Positions 2,081 through 16,600 of a stretch of 16,600 nt of DNA are shown piece by piece. The stretch lies in assembly GCA_021286885.1 (NCBI GenBank), contig JAJTBM010000024.1:1-16600 (forward strand), in the 5' to 3' direction. Source of the DNA: Rhodocyclales bacterium. Lineage in GTDB: Bacteria; Pseudomonadota; Gammaproteobacteria; Burkholderiales; Rhodocyclaceae. Within the stretch, counting starts at the first letter, position 1, and the number at the start of each line of letters is the position of its first letter. The translations under genes and the position numbers were made by a program. The notes beneath the pieces were generated by a model. That model made no database searches. It saw only the letters and a program-made list of their open reading frames with translations, and was not told where the DNA came from.

Positions 2081-2121
2081 TTGATCTGCCCCAAGGGCGC
2101 CGGAAGGCTCAAGTTTTGCCA
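2081..2121 (-). promoter_or_regulatory. Possible FNR/DNR-type box and weak -24/-12 element before norE
   Basis: TTGATCTGCCCCAA (2081-2094) fits the TTG-N8-CAA core of FNR/DNR/NNR boxes, with a good left half and a poor right half, centred 42 bases from the norE ATG. Slightly upstream on the minus strand, 2106-2121 reads TGGCAAAACTTGAGCC, which has GG and GC at sigma-54 spacing but a poor -12 half. NO reductase genes are known to be controlled by either DNR/NNR or NorR with sigma-54, so both were looked for. Neither match is strong. Confidence 0.25.
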
Positions 2122-2171
2122 TGCGTGGGCGTTACTCAATGCTTGATGAGTGGTATTCGGGGCACAGAGCA

Positions 2172-3110
2172 ATGCGTATTCTGCTGGTGGACGATTCCAG
2201 GGCCGTGGCTGCGGTATTGGGCGCACGCCTGAATGCCATTGGCCATGAAGTGGTGCTGGCAGAAAACGGCTTGGTAGCGCTGGATGTATTCCGTCAGAGC
2301 ACTCCGGATCTGGTGCTGATGGACATGGAAATGCCGGTCATGGACGGCTTTGCAGCAGTCCAGCACATCCGCAAACTGGAAGCTGAGCGGGCTGGCGCCT
2401 GGACGCCCATCATTTTTCTCACGGGTTCGGAGCGTTCTGAACATCTGGTGACGGCCATCGATGCGGGGGCTGATGCCTTCATCCCCAAAATGGCCCCGCC
2501 GGCCGTCCTGGCGGCCAAGATGAAGGCCATGGCTCGCATTGCCGCCCTGCGCGCCGAACTGACCCAAGCCAATCTCAAGCTCGAAGCCCTGGCCAATCAG
2601 GACGGGCTCACGGGATTGTTCAATCGCCGCTACCTGGATCTGCGCCTGGAGCACATCTGGAACGAGGCCCTGCGCCGGGGCGATAGCCTGGGCTTTTTGA
2701 TGCTGGATGTGGATTGCTTCAAAAAATACAACGACCGCTATGGCCATTTGGCGGGCGATGATTGCCTGCGGGCCGTGGCGACGGCCATGGCGGTGGTGGT
2801 GGACCGCTTGCAGGTGGGACGGGTGATTCAGTCCGGTTTTGCGGCCCGCTACGGGGGCGAAGAGTTTGCGGTGGTGCTGCCTTTGGTTTCATGCGCCGAA
2901 TTAACCCAGGTGGCTGATGCCTTGCTGGCGGCGGTGCGTGGTATGGCCATGATCCATGAGGGTAACAGTGGTTGGGGCGTCGTTACTTTGTCCTTGGGCG
3001 CGGCATGGCTGCCCCGGGCGGAGGGCGATTTGCCGGCCTTCATCCGTCAGGCGGATGCCCGTTTGTATCGCGCCAAGCAAAAAGGGCGCAATCGGGGAGA
3101 GCTGGAGTAG
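2172..3110 (+). CDS. Response regulator with REC and GGDEF domains (diguanylate cyclase)
   Basis: A 312-residue protein when started at the ATG at 2172, which places MRILLVDDS at the N-terminus as is normal for a receiver domain. In-frame ATGs at 2121 and 2139 would add non-conserved residues. The REC domain (1-120) has the acidic pair D7-D8, phospho-acceptor D51 (LVLMDMEMP), T84 and K106. A short helical linker (about 122-142) leads to a GGDEF domain (about 143-312) with DGLTGLFNRRYLD, the LDVDCFKKYND metal and GTP segment, and an intact GGEEF active site (228-232). It should make c-di-GMP from two GTP when phosphorylated. The RxxD inhibitory site expected just before the active loop is absent (IQSG instead). 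No histidine kinase is adjacent. It is divergent from norE and convergent with the next gene. Confidence 0.92.
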   Translation: MRILLVDDSRAVAAVLGARLNAIGHEVVLAENGLVALDVFRQSTPDLVLMDMEMPVMDGFAAVQHIRKLEAERAGAWTPIIFLTGSERSEHLVTAIDAGADAFIPKMAPPAVLAAKMKAMARIAALRAELTQANLKLEALANQDGLTGLFNRRYLDLRLEHIWNEALRRGDSLGFLMLDVDCFKKYNDRYGHLAGDDCLRAVATAMAVVVDRLQVGRVIQSGFAARYGGEEFAVVLPLVSCAELTQVADALLAAVRGMAMIHEGNSGWGVVTLSLGAAWLPRAEGDLPAFIRQADARLYRAKQKGRNRGELE

Positions 3111-3618: not shown

Positions 3619-3689
3619 CTTGCCCGAAATCCCTACAACCGCAAGAAGCGTATTTTAGGATCAATCGGGCTTGATGCCACCTGGAAACT

Positions 3690-4340
3690 TTATTTTTTAC
3701 GGCGCCGCATCCAGGCCATGCCCAGCAGGCCAGAGAGGGCAAGCCCCGCAATGCCCGGCTCGGGGACTTGGGTGGGCGTGCCGCCTGCGGTGACAATCAC
3801 ATTGTCGAGGCCGACGCCCGCTCTATTGGTGGAGGGGTCTTGGGATACAGAGAAGGACAGGGATGTCAGGGCGTCGGTGGCCATAAAGCTAAAGGTCTTG
3901 GTTTCCCAGTCGGAGTATTTTCCAGGGTCCAGCATGTTAACAAAGGTTGTGAATTTTATATTGTTCACCCATACGTCAAGCACGACATTGGTGCCCGTGA
4001 CTGAAAAGGCACCCAGGGCGAATTGAACCGTATAGGTATTGCCGATGGTCGTTGAAAAGTTGTCGGATTTGATTCCGCCTCTGCCGTAATATCCGCTCAA
4101 ATCAAGTAGTTGAGAGCCTTCGGAAGAGGAGACGCCGCCGTAGAAATTTGTATGTACTTGAGTGATCGTTTCGTTGATTACAGTCCAGCCTGGCATGTAG
4201 GTGCTTCCTGCTGGGAGATAGAGTTCGCTAACTGGACGCTCTTCAAACCCCCCGTTGCGAATAAGATTTGCAGAAGCTGCGCCGGCAATAAGTTGAGAAA
4301 TAAGAAGGGCGGCGATTTTGAAAGTGGTGCTGGTGCGCAT
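3690..4340 (-). CDS. PEP-CTERM protein with a DUF642/choice-of-anchor-like domain
   Basis: A 216-residue secreted protein. It has an N-terminal signal peptide (cleavage likely after AASA, residue 24) and a beta-sandwich domain opening NLIRNGGFEE, with GWTV (51-54), QLLDLSG (77-83), a NTYTVQFALG strand (101-110) and GVGLDNVIV (176-183), the layout of DUF642 and choice-of-anchor C proteins. It closes with a PEP-CTERM tail: VPEP (192-195), a hydrophobic helix and the basic end MRRRKK. Such proteins are exported and their tail is cut by an exosortase (none in this window), often for release into an exopolysaccharide matrix. A good Shine-Dalgarno (GGAG, 6 bases before the ATG) supports the start at 4340. 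It is not a homologue of the three PEP-CTERM copies at 11392-14126 beyond the sorting tail, and no -24/-12 promoter was found upstream. It appears to be monocistronic. Confidence 0.9.
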   Translation of the reverse strand: MRTSTTFKIAALLISQLIAGAASANLIRNGGFEERPVSELYLPAGSTYMPGWTVINETITQVHTNFYGGVSSSEGSQLLDLSGYYGRGGIKSDNFSTTIGNTYTVQFALGAFSVTGTNVVLDVWVNNIKFTTFVNMLDPGKYSDWETKTFSFMATDALTSLSFSVSQDPSTNRAGVGLDNVIVTAGGTPTQVPEPGIAGLALSGLLGMAWMRRRKK

Positions 4341-10542: not shown

Positions 10543-11271
10543 ATGGCGGGTCATTCCAAGTGGGCCAATATTCAGCATCGTAAGGGCCGTCAAGACGAAA
10601 AGCGCGGGCGCGTGTTCTCCCGGCTGGCCAAGGAAATCACCGTGGCAGCACGCATGGGCGGGGGCGACGCCGTCTTCAACCCGCGTCTGCGGCTGGCTGT
10701 CGACAAGGCCAAGGCGGTCAACATGCCCGCCGACAACATCGACCGGGCCGTCAAGAAGGGCACTGGCGAACTTGAGGGCGTGAGCTACGAAGAGTCCCGC
10801 TACGAAGGCTATGGCATCGGCGGCGCCGCCGTGATGGTGGATTGCCTCACCGACAACAAGACCCGTACCGTGGCCGATGTGCGTCATGCCTTCAACAAAT
10901 ACGGCGGCAACATGGGCACCGACGGCTGCGTGGCTTTCCAGTTCAAGCACTGCGGCCAGCTGCTGTTTGCGCCCGGCACCTCCGAAGACGCGCTGATGGA
11001 CGCTGCCCTTGAGGCCGGTGCCGAAGACGTGGTGACCCACGACGATGGCGCCATTGAAGTCATCACCGAGCCCTACGAGTTTTCCAACGTTCAGGAAGCG
11101 CTGCAAAAGGCAGGCTTCACCGCCGAATTCGGTGAAGTCACCATGAAGCCCCTCAACGAAACCGAACTCGTGGGCGAAGACGCCGTGCGCATGCAAAAGC
11201 TGCTCGACGCCATTGAATCCCTCGACGACGTGCAAGCGGTGTACACCTCTGCGGTGATGGCCGAGGGCTGA
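10543..11271 (+). CDS. yebC: YebC/PmpR family protein
   Basis: A 242-residue protein of the usual YebC length. It starts with the family hallmark [14 protein letters not shown] and continues with an FSRLAKEI helix, then [13 protein letters not shown] and [13 protein letters not shown], and in the last domain [12 protein letters not shown]. Members bind DNA as regulators (PmpR in Pseudomonas), and more recently described members and the mitochondrial relative TACO1 aid translation of proline-rich stretches; which applies here cannot be told from sequence. In many betaproteobacteria yebC is followed by ruvC; here a terminator follows and no ruv gene is present. AGG 5-7 bases before the ATG serves as a weak Shine-Dalgarno. 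Confidence 0.96.
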
Positions 11272-11305
11272 GCGCTCCAATCCATCACGCTGGCGTTCTG
11301 CCTGC

Positions 11306-11346
11306 AAAAAACGGCCACGGTTGTAAAACCGGTGGCCGTTTTTTTA
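11306..11346. terminator. Bidirectional terminator between yebC and the first PEP-CTERM copy
   Basis: ACGGCCAC-GGTT pairs with AACC-G-GTGGCCGT (one bulged G) around a short loop, flanked by an A run on the left and a T run on the right, so it can end transcripts from yebC (stop 11271) and from the convergent gene (stop 11392). Its stem sequence is related to the hairpins at 12445-12478 and 13416-13457. Confidence 0.9.
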
Positions 11347-11391
11347 TGCGCCTGCCGCCTGAAGGAGTCGGGCGTTAGACGTGTTGCGGTA

Positions 11392-12048
11392 TTACTTCTG
11401 TTGCTTGCGGCGGCGCAGGGCGCCCAGACCCACCAGGCCTGCGCTCAGCAGGGCGATCGAGGTGGGTTCGGGAACGCTGGCGCTCGGGGTGCTCCAGGAC
11501 ACGCCGAAGGCATCGATTGCCATGTCCCAGCCAGTGGCGCCGGTAATTTGCAGATCCAGGGTGCCACCTGCATTCAGCAGGGCGGGATCAACGTTGAAGG
11601 AGATGGTCTGGTTGGAGGTATTGGCCGGAATATCTGCGGTGAACAGGCTGGTGCCATTCAGGGTAAAGGAAACGTGGGTCGGGTTGCCATCGGAGCTGAC
11701 GATTTCAAAAAAGAAATTGGCCAGGGCATTGGTCGGAAGATTGAAAGACAGATTGCTCCAGGTCACGTCAACAATCGAGTTCTCGCCGGTGCCATTGGTG
11801 ATGTCCAGAATGCCGCTGCCGGCAGTCCCGGTCACTTCGGCGCTGCTGTTCACCGGTGTCATATCCGCGATCAGGTTGGAGGACAGGGTGCGGATAGCGC
11901 TGCTGCTGCTGATGGTGCCAAGGCTGGTGTTGGATACGCTCTGGGGATTGCTGTCGAAATCGTCGATGATGATGGTGCCGGTGGCGGCGTGGGTTTGGGC
12001 GGCAAACAGGCCGCAGGCAAGGCCGAGGGCGATGATGGAATTTTTCAT
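11392..12048 (-). CDS. PEP-CTERM protein, tandem paralogue 1
   Basis: A 218-residue secreted protein: signal peptide with cleavage near THA-A (residue 21), a single beta-rich domain, and a PEP-CTERM tail VPEP (192-195), hydrophobic helix and basic RRRKQQK end. The domain shares with its two downstream-numbered neighbours: IIDDF (27-31), IRTLS (52-56), LDITNG.GE (81-89), SDGNPT (119-124), IPANT (140-144), GGTLDLQITG (161-170) and GWDMAIDAFGVSW (173-185). I recognise the sorting tail but not the domain. Expected fate: export by Sec, then cleavage of the tail by an exosortase encoded elsewhere, with delivery to the cell surface or matrix. A near-consensus sigma-54 promoter lies 52-67 bases upstream. 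There are no cysteines in the mature protein. Confidence 0.92.
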   Translation of the reverse strand: MKNSIIALGLACGLFAAQTHAATGTIIIDDFDSNPQSVSNTSLGTISSSSAIRTLSSNLIADMTPVNSSAEVTGTAGSGILDITNGTGENSIVDVTWSNLSFNLPTNALANFFFEIVSSDGNPTHVSFTLNGTSLFTADIPANTSNQTISFNVDPALLNAGGTLDLQITGATGWDMAIDAFGVSWSTPSASVPEPTSIALLSAGLVGLGALRRRKQQK

Positions 12049-12067
12049 GGGAAAGTCTCGCTATGTG

Positions 12068-12085
12068 GTTGTTGAATTCAGCAAC
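12068..12085 (-). repeat. Inverted repeat in the leader of PEP-CTERM copy 1
   Basis: GTTGTTGAATTCAGCAAC reads as an 18-base near-perfect palindrome (one mismatched pair), centred on GAATTC, 20-37 bases before the start codon. It falls at the very 5' end of the transcript predicted from the -24/-12 promoter. Could be a 5' stabilising hairpin or a protein-binding site; compare 13176-13190. Confidence 0.6.
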
Positions 12086-12099
12086 TGGCGTTTCCTCAT

Positions 12100-12115
12100 A
12101 GCATTTGCCGTGCCA
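12100..12115 (-). promoter_or_regulatory. Sigma-54 (-24/-12) promoter of PEP-CTERM copy 1
   Basis: On the minus strand the site reads TGGCACGGCAAATGCT against the consensus TGGCACG-N4-TTGCW, with a single mismatch (A for the first T of the -12 TTGC). The GG and GC pairs are exactly ten bases apart. Transcription would begin near 12089, about 40 bases before the ATG at 12048. RpoN with the PrsK/PrsR system is known to drive a PEP-CTERM gene in Zoogloea, which makes this assignment reasonable. Confidence 0.8.
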
Positions 12116-12444
12116 TGTCAAAAAATCCAAATTAAATCATCGTGTTGAACGAAACAAAAATTTTCTATCTATTTGCAATGTGTAAAGTGTGCCGACACAA
12201 ATAAATTTTTATGCATTTCAGGATGTTTGTTTTGATTTTCAGAGTAAGTGTTTTGATAAACGGGAAATAAAATCCAATTTGAGTTTTTGCGGTCTGGGTT
12301 TGTTTGGGTGCCTGTGGCATTGTGCGCATCTGCATGGGTATAAATCGACGCTGTATATGGGCGTCGGCTAATTTAGGGGTGTTTTGGGGGCTCGGATCAG
12401 AGCTCTGAGTGGAAAATTTACCGACATGCCCGCTCTGCAAGCAA
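12116..12444. other. AT-rich spacer between PEP-CTERM copies 1 and 2
   Basis: About 330 bases between the sigma-54 promoter of copy 1 and the terminator of copy 2. It is much richer in A and T than the genes around it, and short frames here have no start signal or coding character. It contains a small hairpin, CGACGC / GCGTCG (12346-12366). It could hold activator binding sites for the sigma-54 promoter, which normally lie upstream by this distance, but no convincing repeated site was found. Confidence 0.4.
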
Positions 12445-12478
12445 AAACGGCCATCCGGTGGCGTGCCGGTGGCCGTCA
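12445..12478 (-). terminator. Terminator of PEP-CTERM copy 2
   Basis: On the minus strand ACGGCCACCGG pairs imperfectly with CCGGATGGCCGT and runs into TTTTTGC, 24 bases beyond the stop at 12502. The left 15 bases on the plus strand (AACGGCCATCCGGTG) are identical to those of the hairpin after copy 3. Confidence 0.85.
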
Positions 12479-12501
12479 GATTGAGTGATGAATGTGTGGT
12501 G

Positions 12502-13149
12502 TCAGGGGGTAGTGCGCTTGCGTCCGCGTGTGGCGCCCAGCCCTGCCAGGCCCAACCCGAGCAGTGCCACCGAGGTGGGTTCGGGGGTGCTATTGCTGGG
12601 TTCGCTCCAGGAGATCCCAATGGAGTCGAGTGCCAGATCCCAGCCCGCCTGCCCGGTAATGCTCAGTTCCAGCGTGCCACCGGAGCTCAGCAGGCTGCTG
12701 GCCACAGTGAAGGTCACATCCGCATCACTGGTGTTGGCAGGAATCGTGGTGGTGTAGATGGCGACGCCGTCCAGGGTGAAGGTCAAGCTGGTCGGATTGC
12801 CATCGGAGGCAATCACCGTGAACACAAAATTCACTTGGCTGATGTCGGTGGGAATGCTGAGCGCAGCCAGGCTCCAGGTCAGATCCACCACCGAAGTTTC
12901 GCCCACGCCGTTGGTGATATCTAAATAGCCGTTAGAGACGGTAGCCGCGCTTTGCACGGGGGGCAGGGTGGTGGTCAGAGTGCTGCTCAGGGTGCGAATG
13001 GCGTTGGTATCTGAAACAGTCACGTTTTTGGTGGAGGTGGTGATCGATTGATCACCGCTATTAAAGTCGTCGATAACGAAAGTCCCGGCGCAGGCGTGGC
13101 CTGCATACAGGCTTGCGCTAAGGGCGCAGGCAATGAGTGCGTTTTTCAT
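12502..13149 (-). CDS. PEP-CTERM protein, tandem paralogue 2
   Basis: A 215-residue secreted protein. The frame extends upstream to 13377, but the ATG at 13149 (MKNALIACALSASLYAGHACAG) gives a proper signal peptide that aligns with those of both paralogues, so it is used although no Shine-Dalgarno is visible. Domain landmarks: VIDDFNSGDQS (25-35), IRTLS (51-55), LDITNGVGE (76-84), SDGNPT (115-120), IPANT (136-140), GGTLELSITG (157-166) and GWDLALDSIGISW (169-181). The tail is TPEP (188-191), a glycine-rich hydrophobic helix and RGRKRTTP. Alignment by eye with copy 1 shows homology along the whole length. It lies between two terminators, so it needs its own promoter; no -24/-12 match with correct spacing was found. 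Confidence 0.92.
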   Translation of the reverse strand: MKNALIACALSASLYAGHACAGTFVIDDFNSGDQSITTSTKNVTVSDTNAIRTLSSTLTTTLPPVQSAATVSNGYLDITNGVGETSVVDLTWSLAALSIPTDISQVNFVFTVIASDGNPTSLTFTLDGVAIYTTTIPANTSDADVTFTVASSLLSSGGTLELSITGQAGWDLALDSIGISWSEPSNSTPEPTSVALLGLGLAGLGATRGRKRTTP

Positions 13150-13175
13150 GGTCGGCAGGAAATGGTTGAGATGAA

Positions 13176-13190
13176 GGAATTCAGAATTCC
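13176..13190 (-). repeat. Perfect 15-base inverted repeat in the leader of PEP-CTERM copy 2
   Basis: GGAATTCAGAATTCC is a perfect inverted repeat of seven bases with a one-base centre, 27-41 bases before the start codon at 13149. It shares GAATTCAG with the leader repeat of copy 1 at a similar distance from the start. An operator is more likely than an RNA hairpin, since the loop would be too tight without opening the inner pairs. Confidence 0.65.
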
Positions 13191-13415
13191 CGAGCCTGAA
13201 GCATAGCCTGCGATTGGGTGAAGATTTGAAATCGAATAAATGGGTTTTGAAATAGATTGAGCGGGTATTTTTGCGAACGTGCAAAGACGTGGCGGCCTGT
13301 GTGTGCTTGTGTAATGGTGTGTGGGTTGATGCCTTTCCCGGAATTACTGCCTCCCCTGATCGGAAGATAATGTGCATGAGGGCATGGCCTCATTGTTCCG
13401 GTGTATTGCAGAGAC
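13191..13415. other. Upstream spacer of PEP-CTERM copy 2
   Basis: About 225 bases that must contain the promoter for copy 2. The closest -24/-12 look-alike on the minus strand, GGCTATGCTTCAGGC (about 13194-13208), has 11 rather than 10 bases between GG and GC and lacks the TTGC half. No sigma-70 pair stood out. No coding potential seen apart from the upstream extension of the copy 2 frame. Confidence 0.35.
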
Positions 13416-13457
13416 GAAAATAATAACGGCCATCCGGTGCATGACCGATGGCCGTTA
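13416..13457 (-). terminator. Terminator of PEP-CTERM copy 3
   Basis: On the minus strand AACGGCCATC pairs perfectly with GATGGCCGTT, extended by GGT / ACC after a bulged G, and is followed by TATTATTTT. It begins 37 bases after the stop at 13494. The stem is closely related to those at 11306-11346 and 12445-12478. Confidence 0.88.
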
Positions 13458-13493
13458 TCTACGCCCTGGGCTTGAGGCCCGAGTGGAATGTGT

Positions 13494-14126
13494 TCAGCTT
13501 TTGCGCTTGCGCAGTGCCGCCAGCGTGGCCAGCCCCAGGGCTGCCAGGGTGGCGGAGGCCGGTTCGGGTACACTGGGGGTCGGATCAGTCCAGGAAATCC
13601 CGAAGGCGTCGATGGACATATCCCAGCCAGCGGCACCGGAAATCAGCAGCTCAAAGGTGCCGCCGCCGCTGATCAGGGCGGCAGAAATCGGAACGCTACT
13701 CACCAGCCCTTGGGCGTTGGCTGGAATCGCGGAGGTGAAGATCGTGCTGCTGTTGAGTTTGATGCTGACGTTGGTGGGGTTGCCGTCCGAGTCGAGAATC
13801 TCGAAGATGAAGCTCAGGTTGGTGATGTTTGCGGGCAGCGTGATGGGGGGCAGGTTCCAGAGCACGCTGACAACGGAGTTTTCACCCACCCCGTTCATGA
13901 TGTCCAGGTGATCGTTGGACACGATGGCTTCGCTGCGGATGGGTTGGGTCGCTGCGGTCAGGGTGGTGCTGAGGGTGCGGATGCCGTTATTGTCGCTGAC
14001 GGTGCTGCCCAGAATGGAGTTGCTCAGATTCTGGTCGCCGGTGTTGAAGTCGTCGATGATGAAGACGCCTGCTTGGGCAGTGCTCATGGCTCCGGCCAGG
14101 GCGCAACAGATGAGGGCTTTTTTCAT
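13494..14126 (-). CDS. PEP-CTERM protein, tandem paralogue 3
   Basis: A 210-residue secreted protein. The ATG at 14126 gives the signal peptide MKKALICCALAGAMSTAQAG (cleavage after residue 19); the frame is open further upstream without conserved residues. Shared landmarks: FIIDDFNTGDQN (22-33), IRTLS (49-53), LDIMNGVGE (74-82), SDGNPT (113-118), IPAN (134-137), GGTFELLISG (155-164) and GWDMSIDAFGISW (167-179). The tail is VPEP (186-189), an alanine-leucine helix and RKRKS. It is the most upstream copy in the direction of transcription, has a good sigma-54 promoter, and is divergent from the PilZ gene. The function of the domain is unknown; secretion and exosortase processing are expected from the tail. 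Confidence 0.92.
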   Translation of the reverse strand: MKKALICCALAGAMSTAQAGVFIIDDFNTGDQNLSNSILGSTVSDNNGIRTLSTTLTAATQPIRSEAIVSNDHLDIMNGVGENSVVSVLWNLPPITLPANITNLSFIFEILDSDGNPTNVSIKLNSSTIFTSAIPANAQGLVSSVPISAALISGGGTFELLISGAAGWDMSIDAFGISWTDPTPSVPEPASATLAALGLATLAALRKRKS

Positions 14127-14187
14127 GGAGAGGAATCCTGGGAAAAGTGGTGAGGCAGAATTTTTGACAAAATGCATAGATGACAAA

Positions 14188-14203
14188 AGCAAAATCTGCG
14201 CCG
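14188..14203 (-). promoter_or_regulatory. Sigma-54 (-24/-12) promoter of PEP-CTERM copy 3
   Basis: On the minus strand the site reads CGGCGCAGATTTTGCT. The -24 GG and -12 GC pairs are ten bases apart and the whole TTGCT half matches; the -24 half is CGGCGC against the consensus TGGCAC. Transcription would start near 14177, leaving a leader of about 50 bases before the ATG at 14126. Confidence 0.68.
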
Positions 14204-14386
14204 TTCTGGTAAATGCCTTTAGAATTAAATGGTTATTTTTGCGATGTCGCCTATTGTCGCCCGGTTTTGTAAAAAAAACCGACGTACATAAAAATGAAAT
14301 TGTGTTAAGTAATTGTTTTTAGTAAAATTTGTTTTCTTTGGATGTGCTTTAAAAGCAGCTATTCAATTAAAAGCCTGGGGGCTCTG
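14204..14386. other. AT-rich divergent region between PEP-CTERM copy 3 and the PilZ gene
   Basis: Richer in A and T than its surroundings. It contains a hairpin, CGGTTTT / AAAACCG (14262-14281), and would hold the activator sites for the sigma-54 promoter at 14188-14203 and the promoter for the PilZ gene. No clear sigma-70 pair was found for the latter. Confidence 0.4.
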
Positions 14387-14827
14387 ATGAGTGAAGAGAA
14401 TGCAGTGACGCATGGTGTGGATGTTTCTGAAGCCGAAATTGAACGGCGTAAGCATCAGCGTTTTGTTGCTCGTCGCTGGGGCGAGATCTGCTTTTGGATG
14501 AAGCTGCCGGGCCTGCGCCTGCCGGTGCATAACCTGTCTTTGGAGGGGTTTAGCGTGCCGTTGGCCCAGCCGCTGCCCGAGGGACAAAGGTTTGAATTCC
14601 ACCTGGAGATGGTGGGGGAGCGCGGCGAGGTGGTCGGCGAAGCCTGCCCGCGCAACTTCTTCAGTACGCCGGATGGCTGCGAACAGGGCTGCCGCATCGA
14701 GGCCCTTTCTGATGCAGACCGGGCGCTGCTGCGCACCTGGTTGATCCGGCACGTGATGGCCACCACCACGCTGCCCTTGAGTGAAGAAGAAGCCGAACAG
14801 ATCGTCTCCGGGCCTTCCATCATCTGA
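14387..14827 (+). CDS. PilZ-domain c-di-GMP receptor
   Basis: A 146-residue single-domain protein. The c-di-GMP contact motifs are both present: RxxxR (R21 and R25 in RRKHQR) and NLSLEG (49-54), the (D/N)xSxxG motif, followed by beta strands typical of the PilZ barrel. After the barrel (about 20-115) a helical tail runs to the acidic end LSEEEAEQIVSG. There is no signal peptide or membrane helix, so it is a cytoplasmic receptor. The ATG at 14387 is preceded by GGGGG five bases away. It is divergent from PEP-CTERM copy 3, and PilZ proteins commonly govern exopolysaccharide synthesis or motility, so a shared role in surface matrix is plausible but inferred. Its partner is unknown. Confidence 0.88.
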   Translation: MSEENAVTHGVDVSEAEIERRKHQRFVARRWGEICFWMKLPGLRLPVHNLSLEGFSVPLAQPLPEGQRFEFHLEMVGERGEVVGEACPRNFFSTPDGCEQGCRIEALSDADRALLRTWLIRHVMATTTLPLSEEEAEQIVSGPSII

Positions 14828-15012: not shown

Positions 15013-16600
15013 GTGCTCATCGCCAACAACATCACCATGCAGTTCGGGGCCAAGCCCCTGTTCGAAAACGTCTCCGTCAAGTTCGGCGACGGCAACCGCT
15101 ACGGCCTGATCGGCGCCAACGGGGCGGGCAAATCCACCTTCATGAAGATCCTGGCCGGGGTGCTGGAGCCTTCTGCGGGTAACGTGGCCCTCGATAGCGG
15201 CGAGCGCATGGCCTTCCTGCGCCAGGATCAGTTTGCCTACGAAGACGTGCGGGTGCTGGATGTGGTGATGATGGGCCACGCCGAGATGTGGGCCTGCATG
15301 CAGGAAAAGGACGCCATCTACGCCAATCCCGAGGCCACCGAAGACGACTACATGAAGGCCGCCGAACTCGAAGGCCACTTTGCCGAGTACGACGGCTACA
15401 CCGCCGAAGCCCGCGCCGGCGAGCTGCTGCTGGGGGTGGGCATTCCCACCGAAAAGCACGGCGGCCCCATGCGTGAAGTGGCGCCGGGCTGGAAGCTGCG
15501 GGTGCTGCTGGCCCAGGCCCTGTTCGCCAACCCCGACATCCTGCTGCTGGACGAACCGACCAACAACCTGGACATCAACACCATCCGCTGGCTCGAAGAA
15601 GTCCTGAACCAGCGCAACTCCACCATGATCCTGATCTCCCACGATCGCCACTTCCTGAACCAGGTGTGCACCCACATGGCGGATCTGGACTATGGCCGCA
15701 TCCAGGTGTGGCCGGGTACCTGGGACGACTACATCGAGGCCTCCACCCAGGCCCGCGAGCGTCAGGCTGCGGCCAACCAGAAGGCCAAGGAGCGGGTCCA
15801 GGAGCTGCAGGAGTTCGTGCGTCGCTTCAGCGCCAACAAGTCCAAGGCCCGTCAGGCCACCAGCCGCGCCAAGCTGATCGACAAGATCAAGATCGACGAA
15901 TTCAAGCCCTCCAGCCGTCAGTATCCGTGGATCCGGTTTGAATACGACGAGCGCGAGAAGCTGCACCGTCAGGCGGTTGAGATCGAAAACCTCACCTTCG
16001 GTTACGACCCGGCCAACCCCATCATCAAGAACTTCACCTTCACCGCTGATGCGGGTGACCGGATCGCCATCATCGGCGAAAACGGCATCGGCAAGACCAC
16101 CCTGCTCAAGCTGCTGGTGGGCGAAGCCCTGCGTGGTCTGGTGCCCCAGTTCGGTTCCATCAAGTGGGCCGAAAAGGCCAAGCTGGGCTACTACGCCCAG
16201 GATCACGCCGAAGACTTTGCCAGCGGCGAAAACCTCACCGACTGGATCAGCGGCTATGTGCGTGAAGGCGGTTACGAGGGTGACGATGCCGAAACCCTGA
16301 TCCGGGGCACCCTGGGCCGGCTGCTGTTCAAGGGCGACGACGTGAAAAAGTCTGTCAAGGTGATCTCCGGGGGCGAGCAGGGCCGCATGCTGTTCGGTAA
16401 GCTGATGCTCCAGCGCAAAAACGTGCTGCTCCTGGACGAACCCACCAACCACTTGGACATGGAATCCATCGAATCCCTGAACTCCGGCATTGCCGATTTC
16501 ACCGGCACCCTGTTCTTCGTGTCCCACGACCGGGAGTTCGTATCCTCCATCGCCACCCGCATCCTCGAAATCCGTGGCCCCGGCGACATCGTCGACTACC
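15013..16600 (+). CDS. ybiT: YbiT, ABC-F ATPase acting on the ribosome (cut by window edge)
   Basis: Open from a GTG at 15013 to the window end, 529 residues, close to the 530 of E. coli YbiT, so only the last few codons are missing. The GTG is chosen because [12 protein letters not shown] aligns with the YbiT N-terminus and AAGGA precedes it by 9 bases. First ATPase domain: Walker A GANGAGKS (34-41), the YbiT-type signature [12 protein letters not shown] in place of LSGGQ, Walker [12 protein letters not shown] (177-187), then ISHDRHFL. A charged linker with [17 protein letters not shown] follows. Second domain: GENGIGKT (355-362), ISGGEQ (451-456), [11 protein letters not shown] (472-482) and [15 protein letters not shown] proteins bind the ribosomal E site and adjust translation; there are no membrane segments, so it is not a transporter. 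Confidence 0.95.

Follow-up and report, generated by a model that had tools for sequence, protein, structure and literature searches.

Zoogloea flocs in activated sludge need PEP-CTERM proteins, according to the literature cited here. According to two reports (Haft 2006, PMC1569441; Xia 2023, PMC9850573), substrates of exosortase A (XrtA) carry a signal peptide and a PEP-CTERM sorting tail and are encoded as separate units with long upstream regions, under control of PrsK, PrsR and RpoN. PMC1569441 describes a TTTACA-type motif 1 followed 62.8 +/- 10.6 nucleotides (nt) later by a sigma-54 motif averaging 71 nt before the start, a pair that precedes 99 of 167 proteobacterial PEP-CTERM genes. 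According to PMC9012009, Zoogloea resiniphila without PrsK or PrsR grows as planktonic cells and releases its exopolysaccharide (EPS), and overexpression of the floc protein PepA bypasses the need for both regulators. In Aquincola, RpoN1-dependent PepA moves EPS from soluble to bound (PMC9850573). Here we analyse contig JAJTBM010000024.1 (the window: one entire contig of 16.6 kb), on which three tandem PEP-CTERM genes lie next to yebC. The host, which we take to be a Zoogloea, is represented by a draft resembling a metagenome-assembled genome (MAG; 3.44 Mb, 611 contigs, 80.5% complete). On balance, we think it probable that the three genes encode floc matrix or surface proteins processed by exosortase A, bearing a domain like a carbohydrate-binding module (CBM) and residing in a slot where such domains are exchanged. 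The system is known; the domain family fits no model of the libraries searched, and for the locus architecture we found no description. Among the papers listed by a literature search that left most subscription journals outside its reach, none had a title or abstract opening that describes this locus.

A PEP-CTERM tandem array with a CBM-like core

The array consists of three intact open reading frames (ORFs), each with an ATG start:

11392..12048, minus strand: gene 1, PEP-CTERM protein of 218 residues with CBM-like core
12502..13149, minus strand: gene 2, PEP-CTERM protein of 215 residues with CBM-like core, the copy modelled
13494..14126, minus strand: gene 3, PEP-CTERM protein of 210 residues with CBM-like core

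A preliminary description of the window had proposed three adjacent same-strand genes whose products are related along their whole length and not only at the sorting tail, and this held throughout. The proteins align end to end, those of genes 2 and 3 being 53% and 49% identical to that of gene 1, and after removal of the last 30 residues BLAST identity was still 46-49% (E 1e-45 to 9e-58). Invariant alignment columns include IDDF, IRTLS, LDI.NG.GE, SDGNPT, IPAN, GGT and GWD...D..G.SW. The intergenic stretch upstream measures 453 nt for gene 1, 344 nt for gene 2 and at least 215 nt, up to a divergent PilZ-like gene, for gene 3. No fourth full copy was found in the host assembly.

All three proteins exceed the PF07589 cut-off, confirming the PEP-CTERM tails. 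By TIGR02595 (NCBIfam) proteins 1 and 2 pass, and protein 3 fails with 8.0 bits against a cut-off of 16; the model of protein 2 ends in a predicted helix (191-211). The exosortase and EPS genes that had been suggested as a check are present in the same genome (TIGR02602, 251 bits; TIGR03109, 324 bits, cut-off 208). One contig holds XrtA, two XrtA glycosyltransferases and an XrtA amidotransferase; PrsR (759 bits, cut-off 502.6) and PrsK (693 bits, cut-off 300; sequence cut at the N-terminus) adjoin. An XDP1-type PEP-CTERM gene precedes a PrsT-like TPR ORF (310.9 bits, cut-off 312.2), which is cut by the end of the stretch. Genome-wide there are 11 PF07589 tails, four of them in the window; the XDP1-type gene is missed by this model.

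The core had been described as a compact beta-rich domain that could not be assigned. Its beta-rich character and the lack of a family model stand, and its fold can be assigned: structure prediction for protein 2 gave a jelly-roll beta-sandwich of carbohydrate-binding-module type. No Pfam or NCBIfam family was matched by more than one of 20 trimmed cores (best E 0.0018, to BetaGal_ABD2 in one member, and 0.033), and no Pfam CBM family was among the matches of the 20 cores at E 1. Unlike the jelly-roll modules CBM6, CBM36, CBM4, CBM61 and CBM29, to which identity is about 8-17%, the array proteins have no attached enzyme. With PepA, which in Zoogloea and Aquincola is under PrsR/RpoN control according to the literature, they share the sorting tail; they differ in scoring far below the floc_PepA cut-off (NF033554, 80 bits) at 32.9, 15.0 and 9.6 bits for the whole proteins, with no match for the trimmed cores. 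A PepA-like gene near this threshold (77.3 bits) lies elsewhere in the host genome.

Upstream and downstream of the genes we found the following elements:

12100..12115, minus strand: sigma-54 -24/-12 site of gene 1, TGGCACGGCAAATGCT, 51 nt before the ATG, 11/12 consensus positions
12181..12197, minus strand: PrsR-box (motif 1 type) of gene 1, TGTCGG-N5-TTTACA, 65 nt before the sigma-54 site
14188..14203, minus strand: sigma-54 -24/-12 site of gene 3, CGGCGCAGATTTTGCT, 61 nt before the ATG, 9/12
14268..14284, minus strand: PrsR-box of gene 3 with a single mismatch; 64 nt separate it from the sigma-54 site
12410..12426, minus strand: extra box-like site with a single mismatch, lying between gene 1 and the hairpin of gene 2
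11306..11339, minus strand: terminator-like hairpin after gene 1, also behind convergent yebC; repeat, flagged by the terminator scan on the plus strand
12443..12476, minus strand: terminator-like hairpin after gene 2; repeat alone
13422..13455, minus strand: terminator-like hairpin after gene 3; repeat and terminator scan

Sigma-54 sites as good as that of gene 1 are expected 0.22 times in the whole window, both strands counted. The gene 3 site is not significant alone and is supported by the box 64 nt away. Judged by their upstream sequence, genes 1 and 3 would belong to the PrsR/RpoN regulon of PEP-CTERM genes, with box and sigma-54 site at the published spacing; gene 2 would not. Within the CBM-like family the module occurs in 12 of 19 usable upstream regions (at most 3 box mismatches; 0.07 expected from shuffles), a count that skips two start-less pieces, omits L059 and the duplicate loci L062-L064, and takes the near-identical pairs L047/L048 and L049/L050 separately. 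Among control ORFs it occurs in 21 of 398, 19 of these in loci fetched via a tail match. Box-like sites with at most one mismatch number 13 genome-wide against 5 for the reversed pattern, so some of the 13 are due to chance. A scan of 11250-14450 for sigma-70 promoters gave 0 (1.8 expected). The 34-nt hairpin repeats behind each gene are 65-79% identical; since the terminator scan, with 3 sites against 3.4 expected, did no better than expectation and missed the hairpin of gene 2, the hairpin calls rest on the threefold repeat.

Together these elements suggest a route by which the proteins could act. PrsK/PrsR and RpoN would switch on genes 1 and 3, the signal peptide would carry the products across the inner membrane and XrtA would remove the PEP-CTERM tail. 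The beta-sandwich would thereby reach the EPS matrix and most likely bind EPS chains, holding them to the cells, perhaps with Ca2+. CBM36 binds xylan via calcium; we found no literature on its calcium residues, so the Ca2+ idea rests on this background and on the title of 1ux7. A CBM-like domain exported by a system under PrsK/PrsR/RpoN control would be a straightforward candidate for the part that holds EPS, and exopolysaccharide is the likely ligand of this family without a model.

The yebC slot in the genus

The array lies between genes that recur around PEP-CTERM genes in other Zoogloea:

10543..11271, plus strand: yebC, conserved left flank, protein 88-92% identical at 20 other Zoogloea places
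14342..14827, plus strand: PilZ-like gene (22.0 bits, cut-off 22.5), right flank, divergent from gene 3, 39-52% identical at 14 other loci
15013..16599, plus strand: ABC-F type ATPase gene (named by reading), right flank, runs off the contig end, 93-96% identical at 13 other loci

Among 23 Zoogloea genomes, sampled as species representatives, YebC was found in 20, at 21 places. At 20 of these places, the window included, at least one PEP-CTERM ORF lies on the downstream side of yebC; at the exception, G004, the contig stops 325 bases past yebC. The PilZ-like gene follows in 15 loci and ABC-F in 14, counting the window. Neither is found within the stretch at the G016, G019, G020 and G021 loci, and the G004, G013 and (for ABC-F) G014 loci are cut. 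In G017 and G018 a second PEP-CTERM gene stands between the PilZ-like gene and ABC-F. The expectation that PEP-CTERM genes are scattered thus fails at this locus: other Zoogloea carry one to three of them at the same place, mostly of a different domain family.

The CBM-like core occupies the slot in 4 loci, with three genes in the window and one each in G005, G009 and G012. Choice-of-anchor E (NF033208) was recognised in 11 loci (G003, G006, G008, G010 twice, G011, G014, G015, G017, G018 and G022), with three genes in G011 and two each in G017 and G018; G013 has a fragment, recognised by local profile alone. A third kind of gene, with no NCBIfam match at E 1e-7, fills 4 loci, and a further PEP-CTERM-like gene whose altered tail motif escapes the tail filter adjoins yebC in G006, G010b, G012 and G022. 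Three ORFs that passed the filter (G018 2160, G012 1940 and G016 6127) were judged false and left out. The choice-of-anchor E genes resemble ours in slot, promoter module, signal peptide and tail. They differ in the core: NF033208 (cut-off 23.8 bits) was not listed for any of the three proteins at E 10, profile comparison with the CBM-like core gave an hhalign probability of 0.8%, and the nearest folds differ, as judged through the separate neighbours of each model. Of 26 slot ORFs, 18 are preceded by the promoter module, and in 13 of these its spacer is exactly 63. The eight that lack it are the four of the third kind (one with a doubtful start), window gene 2, G011_1271, one start-less ORF and one cut ORF.

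Described substrates of the PEP-CTERM/XrtA system differ from the slot genes: here paralogs stand in tandem, a single locus carries unrelated mature domains across the genus, and one member, gene 2, falls outside the promoter class. Throughout Zoogloea the slot would keep its promoter, its signal peptide and tail, and its terminator region, as the mature domain is drawn from unrelated families. Breakpoints in relatives fall inside genes. Between G012 and G010b, DNA similarity extends from either side into one and the same second gene and ends within its coding sequence, 61 nt in, counted from the first base of the ATG, and 87 nt short of the stop codon. In G015 and G003, similar flanks and tail (86, 86 and 99%) enclose a core with 50% identity. 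In eight cross-family pairs identity is 60-85% for the tails, 47-82% for the signal peptides and 32-45% for the cores between them (shuffled core, 22-39%). These comparisons use loci with the PilZ-like flank only, and the segment identities come from 15 chosen genes in 18 pairs. Probably, recombination within the conserved ends swapped the domain and tandem duplication supplied further copies; the array of the window may have a like origin.

We tentatively go one step further and suggest that the yebC slot may serve Zoogloea as a dedicated locus for surface variation: an unchanging shell for expression, secretion and anchoring around a recombining exposed domain, a lineage-specific type of EPS lectin or recognition domain, with tandem copies as stock for new combinations. 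If so, the exposed domain would decide what sticks to what in the floc. The slot offers a natural set of comparable designs, with alike promoter, signal and anchor and different domains, and makes directly testable which part carries specificity.

Weighing the explanations

Several results weigh against a domain-exchange slot for glycan-binding floc proteins. The exchange breakpoints come from relatives and are absent from the window's own genes, which share with a choice-of-anchor E slot gene 53-54% of the signal peptide, 60-67% of the tail and 41-42% of the upstream region. Gene 2 has upstream neither a PrsR-box/sigma-54 module nor a GG-N10-GC site of at least 7/12. Foldseek TM-scores are low (0.28-0.40, query-normalised), the alignment of the core with CBM36, which includes the W-D...D motif, is not significant (best E 0.077), and a shared fold by itself demonstrates no function. 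Only 4 of 23 Zoogloea genomes have the domain, which is therefore too rare for a general floc factor. Several slot hosts are draft genomes, and G010, with two yebC loci, has 6% contamination. On the flank tree the domain types cluster, with 4 changes, a number as low in only 1 of 200 shuffles; exchange is therefore infrequent. Mixed arrays combined with loss could account for part of the slot pattern. This last explanation, in which lineages kept different members of an ancestral mixed PEP-CTERM array, draws on the arrays of two or three genes in several loci, on G012, where the CBM-like gene is paired with one resembling choice-of-anchor E (judged from DNA similarity to G011_1271 and by reading), and on the CBM label, which needs 3 changes on the flank tree that losses could supply. 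Whole-gene loss predicts breaks outside genes, however, and those of G012/G010b fall within coding sequence; nor does it fit the 50% core enclosed by similar flanks and tail in G015/G003. We consider it unlikely.

The same clustering speaks against diversifying selection on the exposed domain by phages, predators or rival strains, which would make the slot a surface-variation locus without a fixed biochemical role. Such selection would suit a slot that holds at least three unrelated exposed domains within one genus, and the eight cross-family pairs, in which tails and signal peptides are more alike than the cores; the 97-100% identical cores of G005 and G009, with lower flanks, indicate conservation or recent transfer there, and we regard this explanation as doubtful. 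We are similarly sceptical of a purely structural role, as matrix or coat subunits that bind no sugar, with the jelly-roll as nothing more than a stable exported module: 41 of the 50 nearest structure rows for the core are carbohydrate-binding or carbohydrate-active proteins (many entries repeat the same modules), and the W-D...D motif, which aligns with CBM36 at the weak E-value given above, is invariant. Neutral tandem duplication leaving redundant, functionless copies would suit the missing promoter module of gene 2. It is very improbable given that all frames are intact, that divergence among copies is highest at third codon positions (0.47-0.52 against 0.29-0.40) and that each gene has close relatives, in metagenome clusters for genes 1 and 2 (85% and 87%) and in the tree for gene 3 (P0009 and P0008, path lengths 0.11 and 0.16). 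The preliminary description had read the duplication as selection for dosage or for variants; the slot data favour variants over dosage, and neither is proven.

Family distribution and further observations

Family members were counted with a trimmed core profile (A3). A full-length profile (A2, run against 60 relatives) was set aside for counting, as most of its listed matches cover the tail alone; it gave 71.7 bits for a divergent G030 gene that A3 does not match (core weak at its locus, 28.2 bits) and 28.5 bits for a G008 fragment that A3 does not find. Among the named genomes scanned, Zoogloea ramigera NBRC 15342 carries a gene of the family. The slot genes of G009 (Z. ramigera) and G005 (L148/L140) are 97-100% identical in the core and mostly lower in the flanks (upstream 87%, downstream 70%), as if the core had been recently transferred. 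One scan of viral contigs for a phage or viral origin gave no relative.

The core tree, which omits P0004 (another family), P0005, P0010, P0021, P0043, P0049, L012, L059 and L061-L064, as well as P0069 (core match too short), joined the three copies and metagenome relatives in one clade (support 95/79). This clade is not firm: in the approximately unbiased (AU) test, grouping with the Z. ramigera copy gave p-AU 0.57 for gene 1, which is thus not rejected, 0.19 for gene 2 and 0.23 for gene 3.

Tandem pairs of CBM-like genes also occur in a Methylococcaceae MAG (L052, 127-807 and 835-1560) and in G542 (L061, 4120-5641; one copy with an internal stop).

In the window, the fourth PEP-CTERM gene (3690-4340, minus strand) is of another type, with DUF642 at 35.8 bits (Pfam cut-off 27) and choice-of-anchor C under its cut-off (84 against 120); no sigma-54 site of at least 7/12 lies within 360 nt upstream of it. 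Across the genus, yebC and ABC-F are much better conserved than the PilZ-like gene that neighbours them. Related to cyclic di-GMP, this contig encodes, besides the PilZ-like protein, a response regulator-GGDEF protein (2121-3110, plus strand). Elsewhere in the genome, two one-mismatch PrsR-box-like sites lie at G000:C258:3422-3438 and 3661-3677 (L090, L091); no PEP-CTERM ORF was seen in the L090 stretch, where the flanking ORFs, named by reading alone, are GGDEF/EAL-like and helicase-like.

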